Below are positions 2,605 through 22,998 of a stretch of DNA of 64,000 nucleotides, in pieces. The notes under the pieces are model-generated. The model was not told the origin of the DNA and did not search any database. It worked only from the letters and a program-made list of their open reading frames with translations. The stretch is from Rhizophagus irregularis (taxonomy: Eukaryota > Glomeromycota > Glomeromycetes > Glomerales > Glomeraceae): positions 2,976,001 to 3,040,000 of the forward strand of contig NC_089435.1 in assembly GCF_026210795.1 (NCBI RefSeq), given 5' to 3'. Position 1 is the stretch's first letter. Each line of letters starts with the position of its first letter. The position numbers and the translations under genes are program-made.

Positions 2605-5282
2605 ATTTGAGAAAAAAAGTATTTGAATAATATTGAAAATTACAAGTGTGATCTCTAAAAAAAAAGTGTGATCAAACCGGGTTACAAGGTGTAATCGCGT
2701 AAATAAAGAGAGATAAAGGCATAAAAGTTTATATAAAGTATATACAAAAGTTATTTTACAGCACTTCTAGAGTCTACTTTTAACGTAAACAGAAAAAATT
2801 TTATATTTTAAAAATTGAAAATAGTTAAAATAGTTAACAGTCAGTAAAAAAATTAGTATGTATGTATGGAAATTTTTTATGCAGATCAATTTTTTTGAAA
2901 ACCCCAATAAATAACTCGGTTTCCTCCTTTACCCAGTGGAAGTTACCTGTAGGTAAGTATTGCAACATGGCCCATCAATATAGGTTATTTGCGTCTAAGT
3001 ATAGAATAGATGACTTGGGCTTATCTGTGATCCATTTACCTTCTCCTATATCTGGGTTATTTGCACGAGCATATCGTTTACTTACCATAGAGATTCCACC
3101 ACGTAATCCTTGTTCTACTATCATGTACATACCCTGGTCAGTTATAAGATCCAATCTTTGCCCTGTTATGAAGAATAGTGCATCCCATGCAAAGCCTGGT
3201 GTTGAGTAATACCAGAGAGGATCTAACCCATATTTTTTCAAGGCCATTTCTCGGAAATTCTGAAATATATCAGCTAGTAGGAGGACGTCAGTTTTGAGAT
3301 AAAAGTCATGATAATCTTGCATTGTTTTACATCCTGCTTTTTCCCATACATACTGTGCATATTCGTATTCTTTATCACTAATGTGGGTTTCATTAAGTTT
3401 GCTATAGAATGCTCCTTTAGATGGTAAACTAGTTTTCTCGAACTTTTTCCAGTCATCCATGTATTCATCATACAGGTAGACACCTTTCTTAAGATAAATC
3501 TCGAGTAATTCAGATGGTATTTGACTTCGTGTTATCTTAAAGTTTTTAGGATGTGCAAAGCATCTACCTGCATCAATTCGCCATAAGTGTTGTGGATTAC
3601 TACATTCTTGTGCTCTACATTTTTCTGCGCCTAGGTTGGATGCTAATTTGTCGAGACTTGATTTTATGAATTGTAAGCTGTCTATAAATCGAAGAGAACC
3701 TAACTTGAATGCCATATACTTTTCCATGTTATAAGGGATAGAATCAATATCATAATCACATTCCATTGCACCAATTCCTTGCATAATCATGTGTCCATCA
3801 TATCCTGATAAATTGTGAAAAATTACTGGGATATGCATTTCGCGAGGTTTTATGGATAAGTCAAGATTACATCCTCTATGTGCTGCACCTTAATACCTTC
3901 CTGTAATATGGCAGTGATCTCTTACTTTATTTCCATCTAAAAGGTTACAACATATCCAGCAGTTTATTGCATTATCATAACTTGCTTGCTCTTGGATTGT
4001 TAACAGCATCATTTCCATTGGATTTCTGAATTTGTTACGGATTGCTTCAGCCTCATTTAGCACTTCGATTACAAATTTTTGTGCTGCATTTTCTCCTGTA
4101 AATATTTTCTGTGATTCACTTACTCATATCTTACCTTAATATACAAGTATGAGCAGGGATTTGCTCTTGTACTTTCTTGGTTTTCTTATCTTTATCTGCA
4201 TCTGTGGGTGGTATGTCCATTACTAGGGCTTCAAAGTCTGCAACAAAGTAATATGGGACTTGCATGCGGCATTTCCAGTTCTTGAATTCATATATATCAT
4301 TTCCTTTCTTTACTGATGGCATGCGGTCTGCTTGTGGGGTTTTATTTAATCCTCGACATATTGCTACATATTTGTCATGGATTTCTTGTTGATGTGTGAA
4401 GTGGGAGATACACCATCGGCAGACAAATGTAGCATGTCCATCTTTATACGTTTATTTACTAAGCGACTCATATTCTTAATCCAGCAATAGTGCTGCTTTT
4501 CCCCGTTACTAATAAGTACTAAATCTATTATTTTACAGCCCTCTGCATCATCCCTATCGGTAACATATATTGGGCATAAGCGGTGATCACACCATTCACA
4601 GATGCAGAGGGCAATAGTTGGATTCTGTCACTCAAATCTTTTTAGAATTACCTCATCAGCTTGTACTGGGAACTCGATACTTTCAAAGTTTAACTCATTT
4701 ACATACTCCTTATACTTGGAAATTCTTTTTGCATTCTTTTCTACTGGATGTAATGCTGCTAGGATTGCCCGCTAGAAGCATTTGTCATCATCATTAGCTG
4801 GATTTACTACTCCCTTTTTCGTGGCAAGATCTTTTGGGAGTGGTATGTGTCCTGCTCCTGTAGGTGGTTGGAATTGCAAGATTTCTATGAATATTTTTTC
4901 TACACGATAGCACTAGTCAAAAAAGGACAATTTGACCTAAATTTGACCAGGTCGAATATAGGTTGAATGATGATCTAATCTGTGTCAAATTGAGGTCAAA
5001 TTTTTGGGCACATTTAGGGTGCCAATCGTCTCAAATTTGGACAAATTATTCGACCATTATTCAGGCTTAAATTGACCAATATTCAATATTAAAACTTTAA
5101 GCTGAATTATGTTCTAATAACAACCCATTTATTTATGAATTTATTTTGATTTTTTTTATCAAATTTATTAAATAAATGTATTTATTAATGCTTAAATACT
5201 TTATAATTATATTATTATTATTGCATCTATCTAATTTACAAAAAATATTGCTAATTCAAATACAATTCCACAATTACATGAT

Positions 5283-7238
5283 TCATGTATTCGTATATAC
5301 GAATATTTGATTGTTCTTTAGCAATCCGCCTGAACCTATAAAAAAAAGAAAAGAACGGTTAGTAACCGTTCATAATATTAAAAAAAAATAAGAAAAAAAA
5401 CCAAGATTCGTACTTACTTACGAATCTTTGGTTTTTTCCGTTCTTCAGAAGACACCCGAGACACCTAGGACCTAAAAAGAAAAGAAAAGAACGGTTATTA
5501 GTAACCGTTCATAATAATACTAAAAAAAATAAAAAAAATAAACCAAGATTCGTACTCACGAATCTTGGTTCCACTTTTCTGAAGATAGGAAGCCAACTCG
5601 AAGCTTAAAAAAAAAGAAAGAACGGTTATTAGTAACCGTTCATTAATATTAAAAAAAAAATTAAAAAAATAAACCAAGATTCGTACTTACGAATCTTGGT
5701 TCCACTTTTCCCAAAGGTCAGAAGTCCACCCGATCCTAAAAAAAGAAAGAACGGTTATTAGTAACCGTTCGTAATATTAAAAAAAAAATTAAAAAAAAAA
5801 TAAACCAAGATTCGTACTTACGAATCTTGGTTCTTCTTTTCCCAAAGGTCAGAAGCCCACTCCACCCGATCCTAAAAAAAGAAAGAACGGTTATTAGTAA
5901 CCATTCATTAATATTAAAAAAAAAATTAAAAAAATTAAACCAAGATTCGTACTTACGAATCTTGGTTTTTCCACACAAAAGCCCACCTGAACCTATAAAA
6001 AAAAGAAAGGAACAGTTAGTAAACCGTTCCAAAATGATAAAAAAAAATAAAAAAATATATATATAGAAAGATTCGTACTTACGAATCTTTATCTTTGGAT
6101 TTTCATTCTTTAGAAGTCTATCTGAACCTATAAAAAATAATAAAGAATGGTTAGTAAACCATTCGTAATAATAAAAAATAAAAAAAATTAAAGATTTGTA
6201 CTTACGAATCTTTGGGTTTTCGTTCTTCAGAAGCCCACCTGAACTAACTATAAAAAAAAGAAAGAATGGTTAATAAACCATTCGTAATAATAAAAAATAA
6301 AAAAAATTAAAGATTTGTACTTACGAATCTTTGGGTTTTCATTCTTCGGAAGCCCACCTGAACTAGCTATAAAAAAAAGAAAAGAACAGTTAGTAAACCG
6401 TTCATATATTAAAAAAAAAAACAAAAAAAAGAACCAAGATTCGTACTTACTTACGAATCTTGGTTTTTTGGTTTTCCTTCTTCAGAAGTACCCACCCGAA
6501 ACCTAAAAAATAGAAAAGAATGGTTATTAGTAACCATTTGTAATATTTTTAAAAAAAAAGAAAAAAAAATAAACCAAGATTCGTACTTACTTACGAATCT
6601 TGGTTTTCCATTCGTCAGAAGTCCACCTGAACCTATAAAAAAAGAAAGGAACGGTTAGTAAACCGTTCCATAATAATAAAAAAGAAAAAAAAAATTTAAG
6701 ATTCGTAATATAATACTTACGAATCTTAAAAAAATACTCCTTTTTCCGTTCCCATTCACTTTCATTTTCCCCTTTTGTTTTACCCTTTCCTTTCATTTTC
6801 TCTTTCCCTTTCGTTTTTTCCTTTGTCTTACCCTTTTCCCTTCGTCTTACCTTTCCCTTCGTTTTACTCTTTCTCTTCGTTTTACTTTTTCCCTTCATTT
6901 TACCCTTTCCCCTTCATCTTACCCTTTCCCTTCGTTTTACTCTTTCCCCTTCATCTTACCCTTTTCCCTTCATTTTACCCTTTCCCTTCGTTTTCCTGAA
7001 ACCTATAAAAAAAACACGAACGGTTAGTAACCGTTCCATAATATTAAAAAAAAACTACTAAGATTCTACTTACAAATCTTAGTTTTTTTATTATCACGAA
7101 GCTCGTTTCGTCTGGCAATACCTGCAAGAAAAAGAAAAAAAGAAACGTTAAAACGTTTCTAAAGTAAAAAAATGACTTTCCCTTCCCATTTACCTTATTA
7201 TCCAAAGTCCAGTGCGTAGTTTCAACCGGCATTCCCAT
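5283..7238 (-). CDS. Putative mini-exon gene inside the CACTA element
   Basis: On the minus strand, acceptor/donor pairs delimit these exons: 7121-7074 (48 nt), 7002-6721 (282, K/G-rich low complexity with frame problems), 6632-6595 (38), 6502-6455 (48), 6366-6325 (42), 6247-6206 (42), 6127-6083 (45), 5992-5957 (36), 5871-5822 (50), 5735-5691 (45), 5603-5560 (44), 5471-5422 (50) and a terminal exon 5335-5283 ending in TGA. Six of the ten exons between 6632 and 5422 (48, 42, 42, 45, 36 and 45 nt) are multiples of three and open in phase 1. They encode variants of RSGGLLKNENPKI, and the terminal exon reads RSGGLLKNN...YTNT. The 38-, 44- and 50-nt units break phase. The first exon is uncertain; an ATG at 7238 precedes a GTAAAT donor at 7193. 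The function is unknown, and the array may equally be non-coding. Confidence 0.4.
5335..6720. repeat. Tandem array of ~115-140-bp hairpin units in the CACTA element
   Basis: About eleven units each hold two palindromes. One is the branch-point hairpin (AACGGTTAGTAACCGTT or AACGGTTATTAGTAACCGTT). The other is the donor hairpin (AAGATTCGTACTTACGAATCTT), in which the minus-strand GTAAGT lies in or next to the loop. Between them lie A-runs and the mini-exon. Small compensatory changes occur (for example GAATGGTTAGTAAACCATTC), which suggests that the palindrome is kept. Confidence 0.85.
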
Positions 7239-7892
7239 AGAATTACTACGAAAAGGGAAAGGGCCACATTTAAAATTTAAAAAAAATAAAATAAAATAAT
7301 TTTTTTTTGTTTTTTTCCGCACCTATAGGGCCAAAGGACGAGGAAAAGAAGGAATAAAAGTTTAAAAAAAAATGCATAAGATTCTTTTTTAAACTTTTGA
7401 TATGCGTAACACGTGATGTGGCTATTCGACCAGCATGGTTAGTTATTCGACCAATGTCTAATTGTAGATCATTGCTAATTAAAGTTGAATTTTTAATTTT
7501 AGTCGAATATAGGCCGAATTTTACTAAGACTGAGTGAATATTCCTTTTTCGACTAGTGTAGAATTTCCAACCTGATCCGTAATTTACATAGTCTTCTACT
7601 TTCTGCATGATTCTTGCTAATGCAGAGTTAAATGTACCATTAATATCTGTTGATGGTAGGATTGGCATATTGCGAGTTTTAAATGGTATATTATATCTGT
7701 AGATATACTCTACTCCATCATCTTCACTAAAGTTACAATCTCTGAATAATCTCTCAAGGTAAGAATCTAAACGTCTTATTGTGGCAAATATTCCAATTCT
7801 TACCTTTATTGATTCCAATCGATTTCATTCATCCTGAAGAATATTCTGGATTGTTTGACTGTGTGCTGTAAGAAATGAAGCATAGTCATGCT

Positions 7893-9875: not shown

Positions 9876-10305
9876 GTTGATCACCCTTTCTCAGTGGTAA
9901 GTGACTAAAACCCTCATTAAGCCTGAGTATAGTGAGGTCGCAGGTTCAATTCCACCGATCACAGAAATTAAACAAATTATACTGCGAATGCTACAACAAA
10001 TAGCGTGAAGGTACAGGGATTAGCGTAGTTAGACTGCATCATTATGAATTAGTGTGTACAGTTAGGCCGCACATTTCAACTAAAGGTCATGGTATCTTTC
10101 TAACGTTCCCTATGAGGCTATTGGCATGTGCGCAGTCCTGTCCTTGAGGTCACTACTATACCTTAGGGGGACTTCCTGTCTGGGTGGTCACTCTACGATA
10201 CCACTTGGGGTCAGTAATGGCTAAATGGTCGTCCTAGATGGTAAAGCTGAGGGTGCAATGTCTTAGTTGTAGTTTGACCTTCTGTTAGGTCTTAGACCAA
10301 CCAAG
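9876..10305 (+). repeat. SINE-like repeat with tRNA-like head, part 1
   Basis: This stretch is GC-richer and full of stops. Near 9942 it has a pol III B-box-like GGTTCAATTCC, and near 9895 an A-box-like CTCAGTGGTAAG. The ends of that 90-bp piece (TTGATC and GATCAC) pair imperfectly, so it is tRNA-like but no functional tRNA. The body contains CTTCCTGTCTGGGTGGTCACT, which recurs with one change near 12614. A hAT-type element interrupts the repeat at 10306. Confidence 0.45.
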
Positions 10306-12486
10306 TAGAGGTATGCTCCGAATCCGGTCAATCCGGATATCCAGTCATCCATCCGAAATTTGACCAGATTTGGATTGATCCGGATGATTCATCGGATTGA
10401 CCGGATGGATCATCGGATATCCGGTCAATACTTGCTCACCAATTTGACTGGATGGTTGACCGGATATCTGAATAATTCAGTCAATCCGGTGAATCCGGTG
10501 AATCTGAATTCAGTTTTTTCTACTTAATACTTTTTATTAATATTAATTAACAATTAGAAATTTTATAATAATAAACATAGTATTTATTTTTACGTTATTA
10601 CAAATGATTTTTAACAAATTAGTTGACACAATATTTATAAAAAGTTTAAGATTTAGAGGTCCAAGAAGGTGTCTCCCTAAAAAAAGAAGCAAAAGGAACG
10701 TTAATTACGTTCCTAAAAACAAAAAAACAAAAATACCTTTCCCCCAACTTACCTTTATAACCATGCCGAAATCCAGGTCCAAGAGGCGTCCTCCTAAAGA
10801 AAGAAGCAAAAGGAACGTTAGTTACGTTCCTAAAGACAAAAAAAACTCAAAAATAACCTCCCCAACTTACCTTTATGAAATCCAAATCTGGGAGGGCGTC
10901 TCCTAAATAAAAGAAGCAAAAGGAACGTTAATGACGTTCCTAAAGACAAAAAAAAAAGATAAAATACCCTCCCCAACTTACTTTAATAGCCCAAGCCGAA
11001 ATCCAGGTCCAGGAAGGGCGTCACCTAAAGAAAAGAAGTAAAAGGAACGTTAATTACGTTCCTAAAGACAAAAAAAACCCAAAAATAACCTCCCCAACTT
11101 ACTTTAATAGCCCAAGCCGAAATTCAGGTTAGGAAGGGCGTCACCTAAAGAAAAGAAGCAAAAGGAACGTTAATGACGTTCCTAAAAAAAAAATAAGCAA
11201 AACACTCTCCCTCAACTTACTTTAATAGCCCAAGCCGAAATCCAGATCCAGGAAGGGCGTTACCTAAAGAAAAGAAGCAAAAGGAATGTTAATTACGTTC
11301 CCAAAGACAAAAAAAAACCCAAAAATAACCTCCCCAACTTACTTTAATAGCCCAAGCTGAAATCCAGGTTAGGAATGGCGTCACCTAAAGAAAAGAAGCA
11401 AAAGGAACGTTAATGACGTTCCTAAAGACAAAAAAAAAACAAAAATTAACTTCCCTAACTTACTTTAATAGCCCAAGCCGAAATCCAGGTCCAGGAAGGG
11501 CGTCACCTAAAGAAAAGAAGCAAAATGAACGTTAATTACGTTCCCAAAGACAAAAAAAAACTCAAAAATAATCTCTCCAACTTACTTTAATAGCCCAAGC
11601 CGAAATCCAGGTTAGGAAGGGCGTCACCTAAAGGAAAGAAGCAAAAGGAACGTTAATGACGTTCCTAAAGACAAAAAAAAAAGATAAAACACCCTCCCCA
11701 ACTTACTTTAATAGCCCAAGCCGAAATCCAGGTCCAGGAAGGGCGTCACCTAAAGAAAAGAAGCAAAAGGAACGTTAATGGCGTTCCTAAAGACAAAAAA
11801 AAAAGATAAAACACCCTCCCCAACTTACTTTAATAGCCCAAGCCGAAATCCAGATCCAGGAAGGGCGTCACCTAAAGAAAAGAAGCAAAAGGAACGTTAA
11901 TTACGTTTCCAAAGACAAAAAAAAACTCAAAAATAACCTCCCCAACTTACTTTAATAGCCCAAGCCAAAATCCAGGTTAGGAAGGGCGTCACCTAAAGAA
12001 AAGAAGCAAAAGGAACGTTAATGACGTTCCCAAAGACAAACAAAAAATCAAAATTACCCTCCCCCAACTTACCTTTATAGCCCAAGCCAAAATTGAGTTC
12101 CAGGCAGGCGTCCCTTAAAGAAATGAAGTAAAGGAACGTTTAGTGACGTTCCCAAGACAAAAGAAAAAGAAATTTACACTTACTTTTCGAAATTCAAGCC
12201 GTCCAAGTCATTCCGAAGTCCAAGTCCAAGTCCGTCCTAAAGAAAAAAAGGTGTTTTTTTTAAAAAAAAAACATTTATGTTAAAAAAAAAAAAAAAAGTT
12301 ATGAATTTGACCAGATTATCTGATCAATCCAGTCAATTCGGTAATCCGTGTAACATCCGATCAATCCGATGTTATCCAACGGATCCATCTGGATTATCCG
12401 CAATCCGTTCATTCTTAATCCGGATGATCCGTTTTTTGATCGGATCGGATGACGGATTGAACGGATTTCACTGGAGCACACCTCTA
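10306..12486 (-). mobile_element. Non-autonomous hAT-type transposon, 2181 bp
   Basis: The left end is TAGAGGTATGCTCC; the right end is GGAGCACACCTCTA, its complement with one mismatch. The 8-bp duplication CAACCAAG flanks it at 10298-10305 and 12487-12494. The TAGAGGTG-like end and 8-bp duplication fit hAT. Both subterminal zones are dense in ATCCGG/ATCCGAT motifs (about 10318-10510 and 12310-12475), the likely transposase binding sites. There is no transposase. The interior (about 10640-12260) is a tandem array of mini-exon-like units on the minus strand. Confidence 0.85.
10640..12260 (-). repeat. Tandem ~120-bp array of splice-module units in the hAT element
   Basis: Thirteen copies of the palindrome GGAACGTTAATKACGTTCC recur about every 120 bp from about 10690 to 12140. 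On the minus strand each unit reads TTAAC-type branch sequence, pyrimidine tract, TTTCTTTAG acceptor, an exon-like core of 32-43 nt (GACGCC...GGATTTCGGCTTGGGCTAT) and a GTAAGT donor. Core lengths of 41, 32, 42 and 43 nt do not keep one reading phase, so coding use is less likely than in the CACTA element. The first minus-strand core, near 12190-12236, is longer and diverged. Confidence 0.8.
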
Positions 12487-12881
12487 CAACCAAGGTGTTT
12501 GTGCACAGAACAGATAGCATGGTTATGGGTTCGATTCCCTACTCTTTGGGTCCTGGTTGGTGATCCCTGGTGGTTGATACCCACCATAAGGGGTGATCCT
12601 GGACAGATGCCTGCTACTTCCTGTCTGAGTGGTCACTACAAAGTATACCACTTGGGGTAAACAACTGTACTATCAGTGCTAGGTAATTGCGGGCTGTAGT
12701 GGCCTTTGAGTGAGACTTAATACCTAAAATGGTGGTATGGAAGGGTACTAGATGGTTGATGTTACCTGTCGAAAGTCCTCCATGAAAGTAGGTGCTCTCT
12801 AAAGGTCATAAAATAAATTGAGTATCAGTATCATGCAATGGATATAGGATGAGTAGGCGGCGTATTCCTAGCTTCAGATCA
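12487..12881 (+). repeat. SINE-like repeat, part 2
   Basis: The sequence resumes after the hAT insertion. It has another B-box-like GGTTCGATTCCC near 12528, and CTTCCTGTCTGAGTGGTCACT near 12614 followed by TATACCACTTGGGGT, which parallels 10165-10210. It is interrupted again at 12882 by a CATCAGG element. I see no gene here. Confidence 0.45.
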
Positions 12882-21300: not shown

Positions 21301-22998
21301 GAATGTAATCATAATTTAGCATTTAATTGGATTCAAAAATCTGCAGAAAGTGGTAATATTATTGCTCAATTTTACTTAGGGAATTGCTATGAATTTGGTA
21401 TTGGAATTGCACAAAATACTATAAAATCAGTGTATTGGTATCAGAAAGCAGCTAATAATGAAAATACAAATGCAAAATTTTATCTTGCAAATTGTTATCG
21501 ATTCGGAAAAGGGGTTGATAGAAATGAGAAAAAAGCATTCGAATTAATAAAAGATTTAGCTGGAAAAGGTAATGCAGATGCCCAATTTGAGCTTGGATGT
21601 TATTATGATAAAGGAATTGGAACTGAAATTAATAAATCAAAAGCATTTGAATTATATAAAGTAGCAACAGAAAAAGGAAATAATGCAGCACAATATAATT
21701 TAAGTAGATGTTATGAATTAGGAGAAGGAGTTGATAAAGATGAAAAAAAAGCATTTGAGTTAATAAATGATTTAGTTGAAAAGGGTAATGTAAATTCTCA
21801 ATTTGAGCTTGGATATTATTATTCAAACGGAGTTGGAACTGAAATTAATAAATTAAAAGCATTTGAATTATATAAAGTAGCATCAGAAAAAGGAAATAAT
21901 GCAGCACAATATAATTTAAGTAGATGTTATGAATTAGGAGAAGGAGTTGATAAAGATGAGAAAAAAGCATTTGAGTTAATAAATGATTTAGCAGAAAAAG
22001 ATTATTTAAATGCTCAATTTCAACTTGGAAATTATTATAATGAAGGAATTGGAACTGAAATTAATAAATCAAAAGCATTTGAATTATATAAAGTAGCAAC
22101 AGAAAAAGGAAATAATGAAGCACAATATAATTTAAGTTCTTGTTATCGATTAGGAGAAGGAGTTGATAAAGATGAGAAAAAAGCATTTGAATTAATGAAA
22201 GATTTAATTGAAAAAGATTATTTAATAGCACAAGCACAGCTTGGATATTATTATGAATATGGAATTGGAATTGATAGGGATATTAAAAAAGCTTTATACT
22301 GGTACCAAAAAGCAGCAGAAAATGGTGATAGAGTTGCACAGTATAATTTAGGAGAGTGTTACGAATTGGGAAAAGATGTAAATAAGGATGAAATTAAAGC
22401 ATTTGAGCTTTATAAAAAATCGGCTGTAAATGGATATATAGATGCAAAATTTATACTTGGATATTACTACGTAAATGGAATCGGAACTGAAATTAATAAA
22501 GAAAAGGGGTTTGAATTATATAATGAGGCAGCTGGCACTAACATCCAAATTAATCTTATTAAAAATGATGACGAAATAGTAAATGATTTAGACAAAGTCA
22601 ATTATTGGTATCATAAAGCTGCAGAAAATGACAATAAACTTGCATTATATAAATTAGGTGAATTTTATGAATTAGGTAAAGGGGTTGGTGAAAATGAAAC
22701 AAGAGCATTTGAATTCTATAAGAAATCGGCTGATCAAGGATATATAAATGCTCAATATAAAGTTGGGTATATTTATAATTATGGAACTCAAATCATCATT
22801 GATAAAGAAAAAGCATTTAATTATTTTACAATGGCTGCAAAAGGAGGAAATGTTGATGCACAATACAACCTCGCATCTTTATATGAACGAGGAGATGGAA
22901 CCGAAAAAAATGTTGAGAATGCCATTTATTGGTACAAAAAGGCAGCAGAAAATGGATGCCAAGAAGCTGAAAAAGGTTTAAACTTATTATTAAAATAG
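18334..22998 (+). CDS. Protein kinase with C-terminal Sel1 repeats, five exons
   Basis: Exons are 18334-18567, 18631-18703, 20053-20216, 20300-20627 and 20699-22998, joining in frame to 1032 residues plus stop. Kinase residues are present: G-loop GNGSFG at 40-45, Lys62 in FALKTF, HRD at 154-156, Asn161, DFG at 173-175. The activation end reads [11 protein letters not shown] instead of APE, a variant seen in many Rhizophagus kinases. From about residue 440 onward there are some 16 Sel1-like repeats (AQYNLG.CYE.G.G....KAFELY), a helical scaffold for protein binding. Kinase-Sel1 fusions are a large expanded family in these fungi, probably in signalling. I chose the ATG at 18334 because the frame upstream lacks another ATG. 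Intron 2 contains a whole Tc1 transposon on the same strand. Confidence 0.85.
18725..20002 (+). mobile_element. Intact Tc1-type transposon, 1278 bp
   Basis: The ends CAGTGTGGGACAAAAAAAAT...GAGAA and their complement match perfectly over about 25 bp, flanked by TA at 18723-18724 and 20003-20004. It lies entirely inside intron 2 of the kinase gene (18704-20052); without it the intron would be about 69 bp. The ends and the transposase are undamaged, so the insertion is probably young. Confidence 0.93.
18912..19880 (+). CDS. Tc1 transposase, DD34E, intact
   Basis: A single-exon ORF of 322 residues, normal for Tc1. Residues 1-110 hold paired helix-turn-helix DNA-binding modules ([16 protein letters not shown], then [11 protein letters not shown]...[10 protein letters not shown]-like). 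A GRPKK basic hook near residue 55 links them. The catalytic triad is in [18 protein letters not shown] and [11 protein letters not shown]. Counting from QDN to IEN gives 34 residues between the second D and the E. There are no stops or frameshifts. It should cut at the inverted repeats at 18725 and 20002 and insert at TA. A CACGTGAT motif occurs inside both ends (near 18757 and 19933). Confidence 0.93.
   Translation: MTKTYDETLLRLWNNGIHDAKKLHKLTNISLSTIYRKIKKIKKNGLLEHAGGNGRPKKIIASASRVLSQYVRHDSSLSTRTLARKLQNIGVEASYRTVGRHLSGVGYLKRLPKATPMLTEAHKIKRVEWARQHINDRWNKTLFTDETAFQLFRNTVERWYKGERPVRRMPKDRTKIMAWGGFSAKGKTSLFCFKQIMNAEFYVEILRRHAPEMSQMLGDHWRFQQDNDPKHTSRLAKAFLTENFPVVLEWPSNSPDLNPIENLWSIIKNKVEKRMPKNLDDLEKFMVEEWQNIPNTVLINLSKSMKRRCELIIEKNGERIPY

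Follow-up and report, generated by a model that had tools for sequence, protein, structure and literature searches.

The window analyzed here, 64,000 nucleotides of the Rhizophagus irregularis genome (C7:2976001-3040000), contains a transposon whose body is laid out like a gene of very small exons. This locus raises the question of what such an array is kept for: the peptide that its exons could encode, or the splicing itself. An earlier note on this DNA had favored the peptide and described a CACTA-type element carrying a variable-number array of symmetrical mini-exons. We searched the genome (146.7 Mb, 32 contigs) for related copies and compared the window element with them, with public gene models and with other arrays of similar layout. 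We propose that the arrays are splicing cassettes in tandem, carried by transposons, and that what they conserve is splicing and not a peptide, a reading to which we assign a probability of about 0.5. The answer matters beyond this locus. About 24% of the R. irregularis genome is given as repeat of no known class in the cited part of PMC8647823, and a repeat class made of splice units would explain part of this unclassified fraction. Gene catalogs are also affected: public "uncharacterized" or "hypothetical" proteins of R. irregularis are joined mini-exons of such repeats. Moreover, the many similar introns form a natural system for studying the effect of donor and branch-site hairpins on splicing, and the arrays let one ask whether transposons gain from being spliced.

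The CACTA-type element spans window positions 4911-7558, has the ends CACTAGTC and is flanked by TAG on both sides. Reading the window element together with 20 other loci, we found that the TIRs follow the form CACTAGTC[GA]AAAAAGG at both termini. A script located both ends in 11 of these 21 loci, the window element included, and the 3-bp duplications were identical in all 11, which bears out the assignment to the CACTA type. Of the 20 other loci, 14 carry the 390-bp left end at nearly full length, with 93-97% identity. Genome-wide queries gave at least 309 matches for the array, 42 for the left end and 59 for the right end (40 of 329, 40 of 126 and 40 of 144 candidate places scored, in that order). 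Eight copies with a mutual likeness of 95-99% form a recent group. The element transposes as a unit. In a search for a CACTA transposase, no ORF of at least 200 aa was present inside 4911-7558. Two pairs of ends lying 14.3 and 16.7 kb apart on C12 and C13 were considered as an autonomous parent and rejected, as both turned out to be copies of the present element in which hAT-like and LTR-retrotransposon sequences are nested. These long copies contain hAT-like and LTR-element ORFs, as judged by eye, and their 3-bp flanks match in one (ATT) and differ by one base in the other. Since the element holds no ORF of this length and the two long copies are nested insertions, it is a non-autonomous CACTA-type DNA transposon.

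On the minus strand, the element contains ten mini-exons of 36-50 nt and a terminal exon, with introns of 77-92 nt; two 5' exons and a purine-rich minisatellite exon lie upstream (Table 1). Ahead of each mini-exon, TACTAAC, TACTAAT or, once, TATTAAC is placed within an inverted repeat and is followed by a pyrimidine tract and AG. Behind each mini-exon, GTAAGT (nine cases) or GTGAGT (one case) lies inside a second inverted repeat. The cassette thus runs from the donor GTAAGT in a stem (GATTC followed by GTAAGTACGAATC) through a T-rich stretch, a branch-site stem such as GAACGGTTACTAATAACCGTTC or GAACGGTTTACTAACCGTTC, the pyrimidine tract and AG to the next mini-exon. Parsing of the gene strand placed the element ends, the splice-module layout and the donor in its second hairpin where the earlier note had put them, and it recovered the final exon that begins like a mini-exon and then stops. 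The proposed extent of the gene, 5283-7241, agrees with the public models RIR_jg8231.t2 and.t3, whose ATG is at 7238 and whose stop ends at 5283. The array does vary in number between copies, as had been claimed, with 4-18 parsed modules per locus across the 21 loci (truncated copies included). A module-chain detector returned 28 chains of at least three modules versus none in the same sequences reversed; 26 of these chains were in the fetched loci, most of which had been fetched for holding a CACTA array, and two were in the window.

Table 1. Features of the two array-bearing elements in window coordinates; mini-exons are numbered in gene order, with lengths from parsing of the gene strand.
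Feature	Position	Strand	Basis
Left target-site duplication TAG, 3 bp	4908..4910	.	identical to 7559-7561
Left TIR CACTAGTCAAAAAAGG, 3' end of the minus-strand gene	4911..4926	+	TIR comparison
Terminal exon, mini-exon-like start, then TGA; GTATAT at the donor position of its hairpin	5283..5335	-	end of P0021, P0071; P0074
Mini-exon 10, 50 nt; three gene models take the +4 donor, 54 nt	5422..5471	-	parsing and models
Mini-exon 9, 44 nt, donor GTGAGT; +4 donor in 2 of 3 models	5560..5603	-	parsing and models
Mini-exon 8, 45 nt	5691..5735	-	parsing and models
Mini-exon 7, 50 nt; stop in SGGL frame; cut to 6 nt in P0074	5822..5871	-	parsing and models
Mini-exon 6, 36 nt	5957..5992	-	parsing and models
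Mini-exon 5, 45 nt	6083..6127	-	parsing and models
Mini-exon 4, 42 nt	6206..6247	-	parsing and models
Mini-exon 3, 42 nt	6325..6366	-	parsing and models
Mini-exon 2, 48 nt; whole in P0074; in RIR_jg8231, first 7 nt plus an 8-nt piece spanning its end	6455..6502	-	parsing and models
Mini-exon 1, 38 nt; three gene models take the +4 donor, 42 nt	6595..6632	-	parsing and models
Purine-rich minisatellite exon, periods 12-49 bp; gene models retain pieces only	6721..7002	-	repeat scan and models
RIR_jg8231 exon 2, 48 nt; preceding branch site in GAAACGTTTTAACGTTTC	7074..7121	-	parsing and models
RIR_jg8231 exon 1 with ATG, 45 nt	7194..7238	-	P0021, P0071
Right TIR, reads CACTAGTCGAAAAAGG on the minus strand	7543..7558	-	TIR comparison
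Right target-site duplication TAG, 3 bp	7559..7561	.	identical to 4908-4910
8-bp duplication CAACCAAG of the hAT-like element	10298-10305 and 12487-12494		both flanks
Second element, hAT-like, TIR TAGAGGTRTGCTCC, own array of 41-43-nt mini-exons	10306..12486	- (array)	8-bp duplications

We compared these borders with the gene models of two annotation projects. RIR_jg8231.t2 and.t3 (P0021 and P0071) and OCT59_027435 (P0074) map onto the window element without mismatch, in 16, 16 and 12 exons, respectively. For the CACTA family, 10 of the 11 model-locus pairs tried gave an exact spliced match; the remaining pair, P0005 with L012, gave no spliced match and was left out of the ten models counted. 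These ten models cover five copies and comprise 125 array exons, 119 of which begin at the predicted acceptor. Among 115 donors, 70 were as predicted and 36 were displaced by 2, 4 or 8 nt, mostly to tandem GTs within the same hairpin. The older annotation fed RNA-seq intron hints into AUGUSTUS and comprises 41,572 genes and 43,675 isoforms, as described in the cited part of PMC6123716, and the newer one is described, in the cited part of PMC10234402, as using BRAKER with RNA-seq and later Nanopore RNA. Isoform names run to.t3 at RIR_jg8231 and to.t6 at RIR_jg29739, which suggests, but does not show, that reads backed alternative splicing at these loci. Some model exons of 4, 6, 7 and 8 nt look forced for the sake of frame-keeping, and gene models can follow ab initio scores, which counts against equating models with splicing. 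Overall, RNA-seq-guided gene models, the one source here, lend good support to the view that the array is spliced at the predicted borders. The tandem mini-exon transcription unit that the earlier note had placed inside the transposon is thereby upheld, with models of both projects splicing at the listed borders.

If the array were a mini-exon gene kept for a repeat protein, its length being altered by unequal crossing over, exon lengths and substitutions should respect one frame. Six of the ten internal modules of the window array are multiples of three, as the earlier note had stated. Over 21 elements the figure was 121 of 242 modules (84 of 188 distinct sequences), and it was 5 of 11 for cluster representatives from the eight recent copies. 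Half of the lengths across these elements, and not a third, are thus divisible by three, which leans toward the earlier note, but the phases are mixed. Among related exons of different lineages, 38 of 184 length differences were multiples of three (the module pairs being non-independent), so that length changes mostly break the phase. Counted pairwise, with non-independent pairs, N/S over expectation was 0.93, 0.60 and 0.56 in the three frames, the last being the SGGL frame (frame 2), in which 10 stop changes were seen versus 18.9 expected on the same pairwise count. With each change counted once, the values were 0.85, 0.65 and 0.72, and no frame stood out; this count used 126 of the 188 distinct exons, clusters with fewer than three members being dropped.

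Open reading frames gave a similarly mixed picture. One frame is open throughout the joined arrays of L009 (255 codons), L013 (182), L016 (195) and L017 (202), as a repeat protein would have it, and L026, with its short array, has two open frames. The joined arrays of recent copies, however, are nearly without stops in all three frames, so openness picks out no frame. Across the three frames, 11 representative exons contained 4 stops versus 10.2 in dinucleotide shuffles (P 0.002; the exons are mutually related), an excess of openness for which base composition accounts in part. This scarcity of stops and the lower non-synonymous count of frame 2 in the pairwise comparison are what a coding gene would show. 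By inspection, no single frame is open in the minisatellite exon.

Exon divergence also exceeded intron divergence in 14 of 19 copy pairs and not in the other 5, CpG changes set aside; between L010 and the window element, on the same basis, the divergence was 3.5% in exons and 1.7% in introns. Within the recent group, 18.8% of exon columns were variable versus 6.7% of intron columns. Small indels, clustered in L013, L014 and L016 and often offsetting one another, make up much of this exon variation; they may reflect assembly error of the Nanopore genome, gene conversion or real hypermutation. Because these clusters may be artifact or gene conversion, we rest no conclusion on the threefold variability of exons in recent copies.

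At the protein level, a search for related proteins gave 171 matches at E up to 1, in several assemblies of R. irregularis, which favors the repeat-protein model. Among the 120 matches listed, all carry Rhizophagus irregularis names, with matches outside the array family not separated from the rest. These 120 proteins have many different beginnings and no common start, and a hydrophobic 9-mer lies near the N-terminus in nine of them (hydropathy count only). No Pfam family scored above the cut-off in nine model proteins. We also considered an effector of the SP7 type and rejected it, since the motif Y[KR]Rx[AP]x[AP] was found in none of the 179 proteins fetched for three arrays. Taken together, the phase-breaking length changes, the lack of a distinct frame when each change is counted once, the excess of exon over intron divergence, the differing predicted starts and a second array with stops in every frame (see below) speak against the claim of symmetrical exons that keep a protein frame, and we regard a gene kept for its repeat protein as unlikely.

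The array proteins can be set beside two known systems with small exons or tandem repeats. Like the schistosome MEGs, the arrays have mostly very small exons, and alternative splicing yields many variants in those genes (PMC4350168, PMC10526429). The cited parts of these two sources attribute symmetrical exons, long introns (up to 5 kb) and secreted products to MEGs, whereas the Rhizophagus arrays are of mixed phase, the window introns measure 77-92 nt, the unit is a transposon and no common secreted product was apparent on the hydropathy count. SP7-like effectors come from the same fungus and share tandem hydrophilic repeats with the array proteins; their genes are described, in the cited part of PMC11333574, with a signal peptide and a conserved intron ahead of the first repeat. 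The array proteins differ from them in the absence of the SP7 motif noted above.

We then asked which parts of the cassette are conserved. Between lineages, non-CpG divergence over 339 module pairs was 0.003 for the acceptor, 0.010 for the 3' donor stem, 0.020 for the donor, 0.024 for the branch hairpin, 0.027 for the pyrimidine tract, 0.039 for the linker and 0.057 for exons. The low divergence at parsed sites arises partly by construction, because the parser required an AG, a donor-like end and a branch hairpin and made partial use of the tract. Neither the linker nor the 3' donor stem was a parser requirement, and these two are the sole free comparisons, since the other parts served to find the modules. 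Divergence of the 3' donor stem between lineages is about a quarter of that of the linker and just over a sixth of that of the exons. Donor stems also covary: 52 unique segments gave 31 compensated cells, compared with a mean of 18.5 and a maximum of 28 in 500 shuffles. Branch hairpins of the CACTA family showed no covariation (7 and 6 compensated cells vs. 5.1 and 7.9 in shuffles), and we set aside branch-hairpin covariation as support. The cassette grammar is conserved, and the borders of RNA-seq-guided models agree with it. These results support the conclusion that splicing and the donor-hairpin part are conserved between lineages while exon sequence and phase drift; selection for splicing in the source lineages has support that falls short of proof.

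An array of this kind could also arise passively, if a captured exon-intron unit had been tandem-amplified inside the element and its splicing persisted through youth, without selection. The 95-99% likeness of recent copies is consistent with this, as are the splice sites of the recent group, which are kept no better than the linkers (12.8% variable columns at the acceptor and 7.7% at the donor versus 6.7% in the linker), and the decay of donors via CpG, 26 of 242 modules having AT instead of GT. That splice sites fare no better than linkers in the recent group is, however, expected if single copies are unselected after insertion. The slow change of the 3' donor stem, the covariation in donor stems and the recurrence of the grammar in several families and at 1332 places (see below) are harder to reconcile with passive amplification, which we hold to be possible but doubtful. 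A role of the inverted repeats at the DNA level or as precursors of small RNA, with splicing incidental, is very improbable. Arms of about 6-9 bp are indeed present at CACTA and hAT-like branch sites and at CACTA donors, but this would leave unexplained both the ordered GTAAGT, branch sequence, pyrimidine tract and AG at intron distances and the gene models that use those splice signals. A small, noisy scan of 240,341 bases outside known elements gave 10 hairpin branch sites, of which three or more are remnants of the same arrays.

Conservation of splicing and not of a peptide is the reading to which a second element in the window also speaks. It is hAT-like, lies 2.7 kb from the CACTA-type element and has the same architecture. 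The window copy has identical 8-bp duplications on both sides, those of L030 agree at 7 of 8 bases, and L031 is without a match. In the search for a hAT transposase, no ORF of at least 200 aa was present within 10306-12486, and the element has at least 183 matches genome-wide. Once joined, its array comes to 155 codons, and its three frames hold 11, 8 and 6 stops. The array has branch stems such as GGAACGTAATTAACGTTCC, and no stem is visible by eye at the donor. Recurrence of the same cassette grammar in other repeats, including this element with its stop-filled exons, is therefore supported. Annotated proteins of both R. irregularis and R. diaphanus contain joined hAT-type exons. In P0130 (RIR_jg14822.t1) and P0137 (OCT59_006753), which are gene models from different projects, hAT-type mini-exons follow the same host-like N-terminus. 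This is the structure that exonization would give, and these models are possible cases of it.

In the mechanism that we propose, the element body would be a minus-strand transcription unit of tandem exon-intron cassettes, each consisting of a donor hairpin, a short T-rich intron, a branch hairpin, a pyrimidine tract, AG and an exon mostly of 36-57 nt. The arrays would act as portable splicing cassettes, in that splicing would divide the transcript of the element, or a host transcript running through it, into small exons separated by short introns. Many products would remain open in some frame, owing to tandem donors spaced 4 nt apart and, for the CACTA family, to exons nearly free of stops. 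This could raise the tolerance for insertions in transcribed DNA, allow exonization of the element, or make its RNA resemble ordinary spliced mRNA to RNA silencing. Exonization appears the most likely of the three roles, given the two gene models in which a single host-like stretch runs on into hAT-type mini-exons. A function beyond splicing, whether exonization or escape from silencing, is one that we infer.

Introner elements are repeats that carry splice sites and insert as single introns. The Rhizophagus arrays resemble them as repeats with splice sites and differ in that introns and exons alternate within one element. Another known system is the soybean CACTA transposon Tgm-Express1, which also has internal exons and introns and is spliced in many combinations; in the cited part of PMC1947982 it is described as carrying five unrelated host gene fragments. 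Unlike Tgm-Express1 as described there, the Rhizophagus body consists of tandem, closely related cassettes in many copies, and the grammar is also found in other families. No earlier description of such arrays was found in the literature searched, which lay mostly outside subscription journals.

Further arrays were found in the fetched loci. A third array, at L033:4087-5820, has 29-nt exons, and OCT59_003993 maps to it exactly, 7 of its 12 exons being 29 nt. Inside one exon of this array, a small hAT-like insertion with the ends TAGGGATGGGG and the duplication CTTGGATC was seen by eye. A fourth array, at L019:2567-3058, has exons of 66-67 nt and a donor in a AAACAAGAA/TTCTTGTTT stem, and a further mini-exon-like array lies in a flank at L011:9134-9519. 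With loops of 3-6 allowed, a hairpin script recovered branch hairpins for the CACTA array and likewise for the hAT-like one. It placed a single one at a splice site of the L033 array, and the arrays of L019 and L011 yielded none. The hAT-like, L033 and L019 arrays share weak mutual similarity in the 3' part of the intron, and their recurrence may therefore reflect common descent.

Genome-wide, a module pattern of two GTAAGT donors and a TTTAG acceptor at module distances occurred 1332 times, compared with 97 for its reversed form. The pattern matches listed extend over C1 and over C2 as far as 3.70 Mb, and among them some 17 arrays, belonging to several families, were recognized by eye; three 9.9-kb samples chosen irrespective of arrays contained no array. 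We tentatively suggest that there may be a genome-wide class of mobile splicing cassettes, carried by unrelated DNA transposons, selected for splicing and not for a peptide, and feeding mini-exons of any frame into host transcripts. Equally tentative is the part of this joint reading that places the branch sites, and often the donors, of the class in hairpins. Another large family, with donors like GTAAGTTCATTTC and the branch stem GGGAACGTAATTAACGTTCCC, is also among the matches listed, at C1:3404k, 3662k, 3686k, 4383k and 6224k and at C2:687k, 3328k and 3661k. Elsewhere in the window, positions 21493-22523 hold a tandem repeat of about 108/216 bp within a 715-aa ORF that resembles, by eye, a Sel1-repeat protein.
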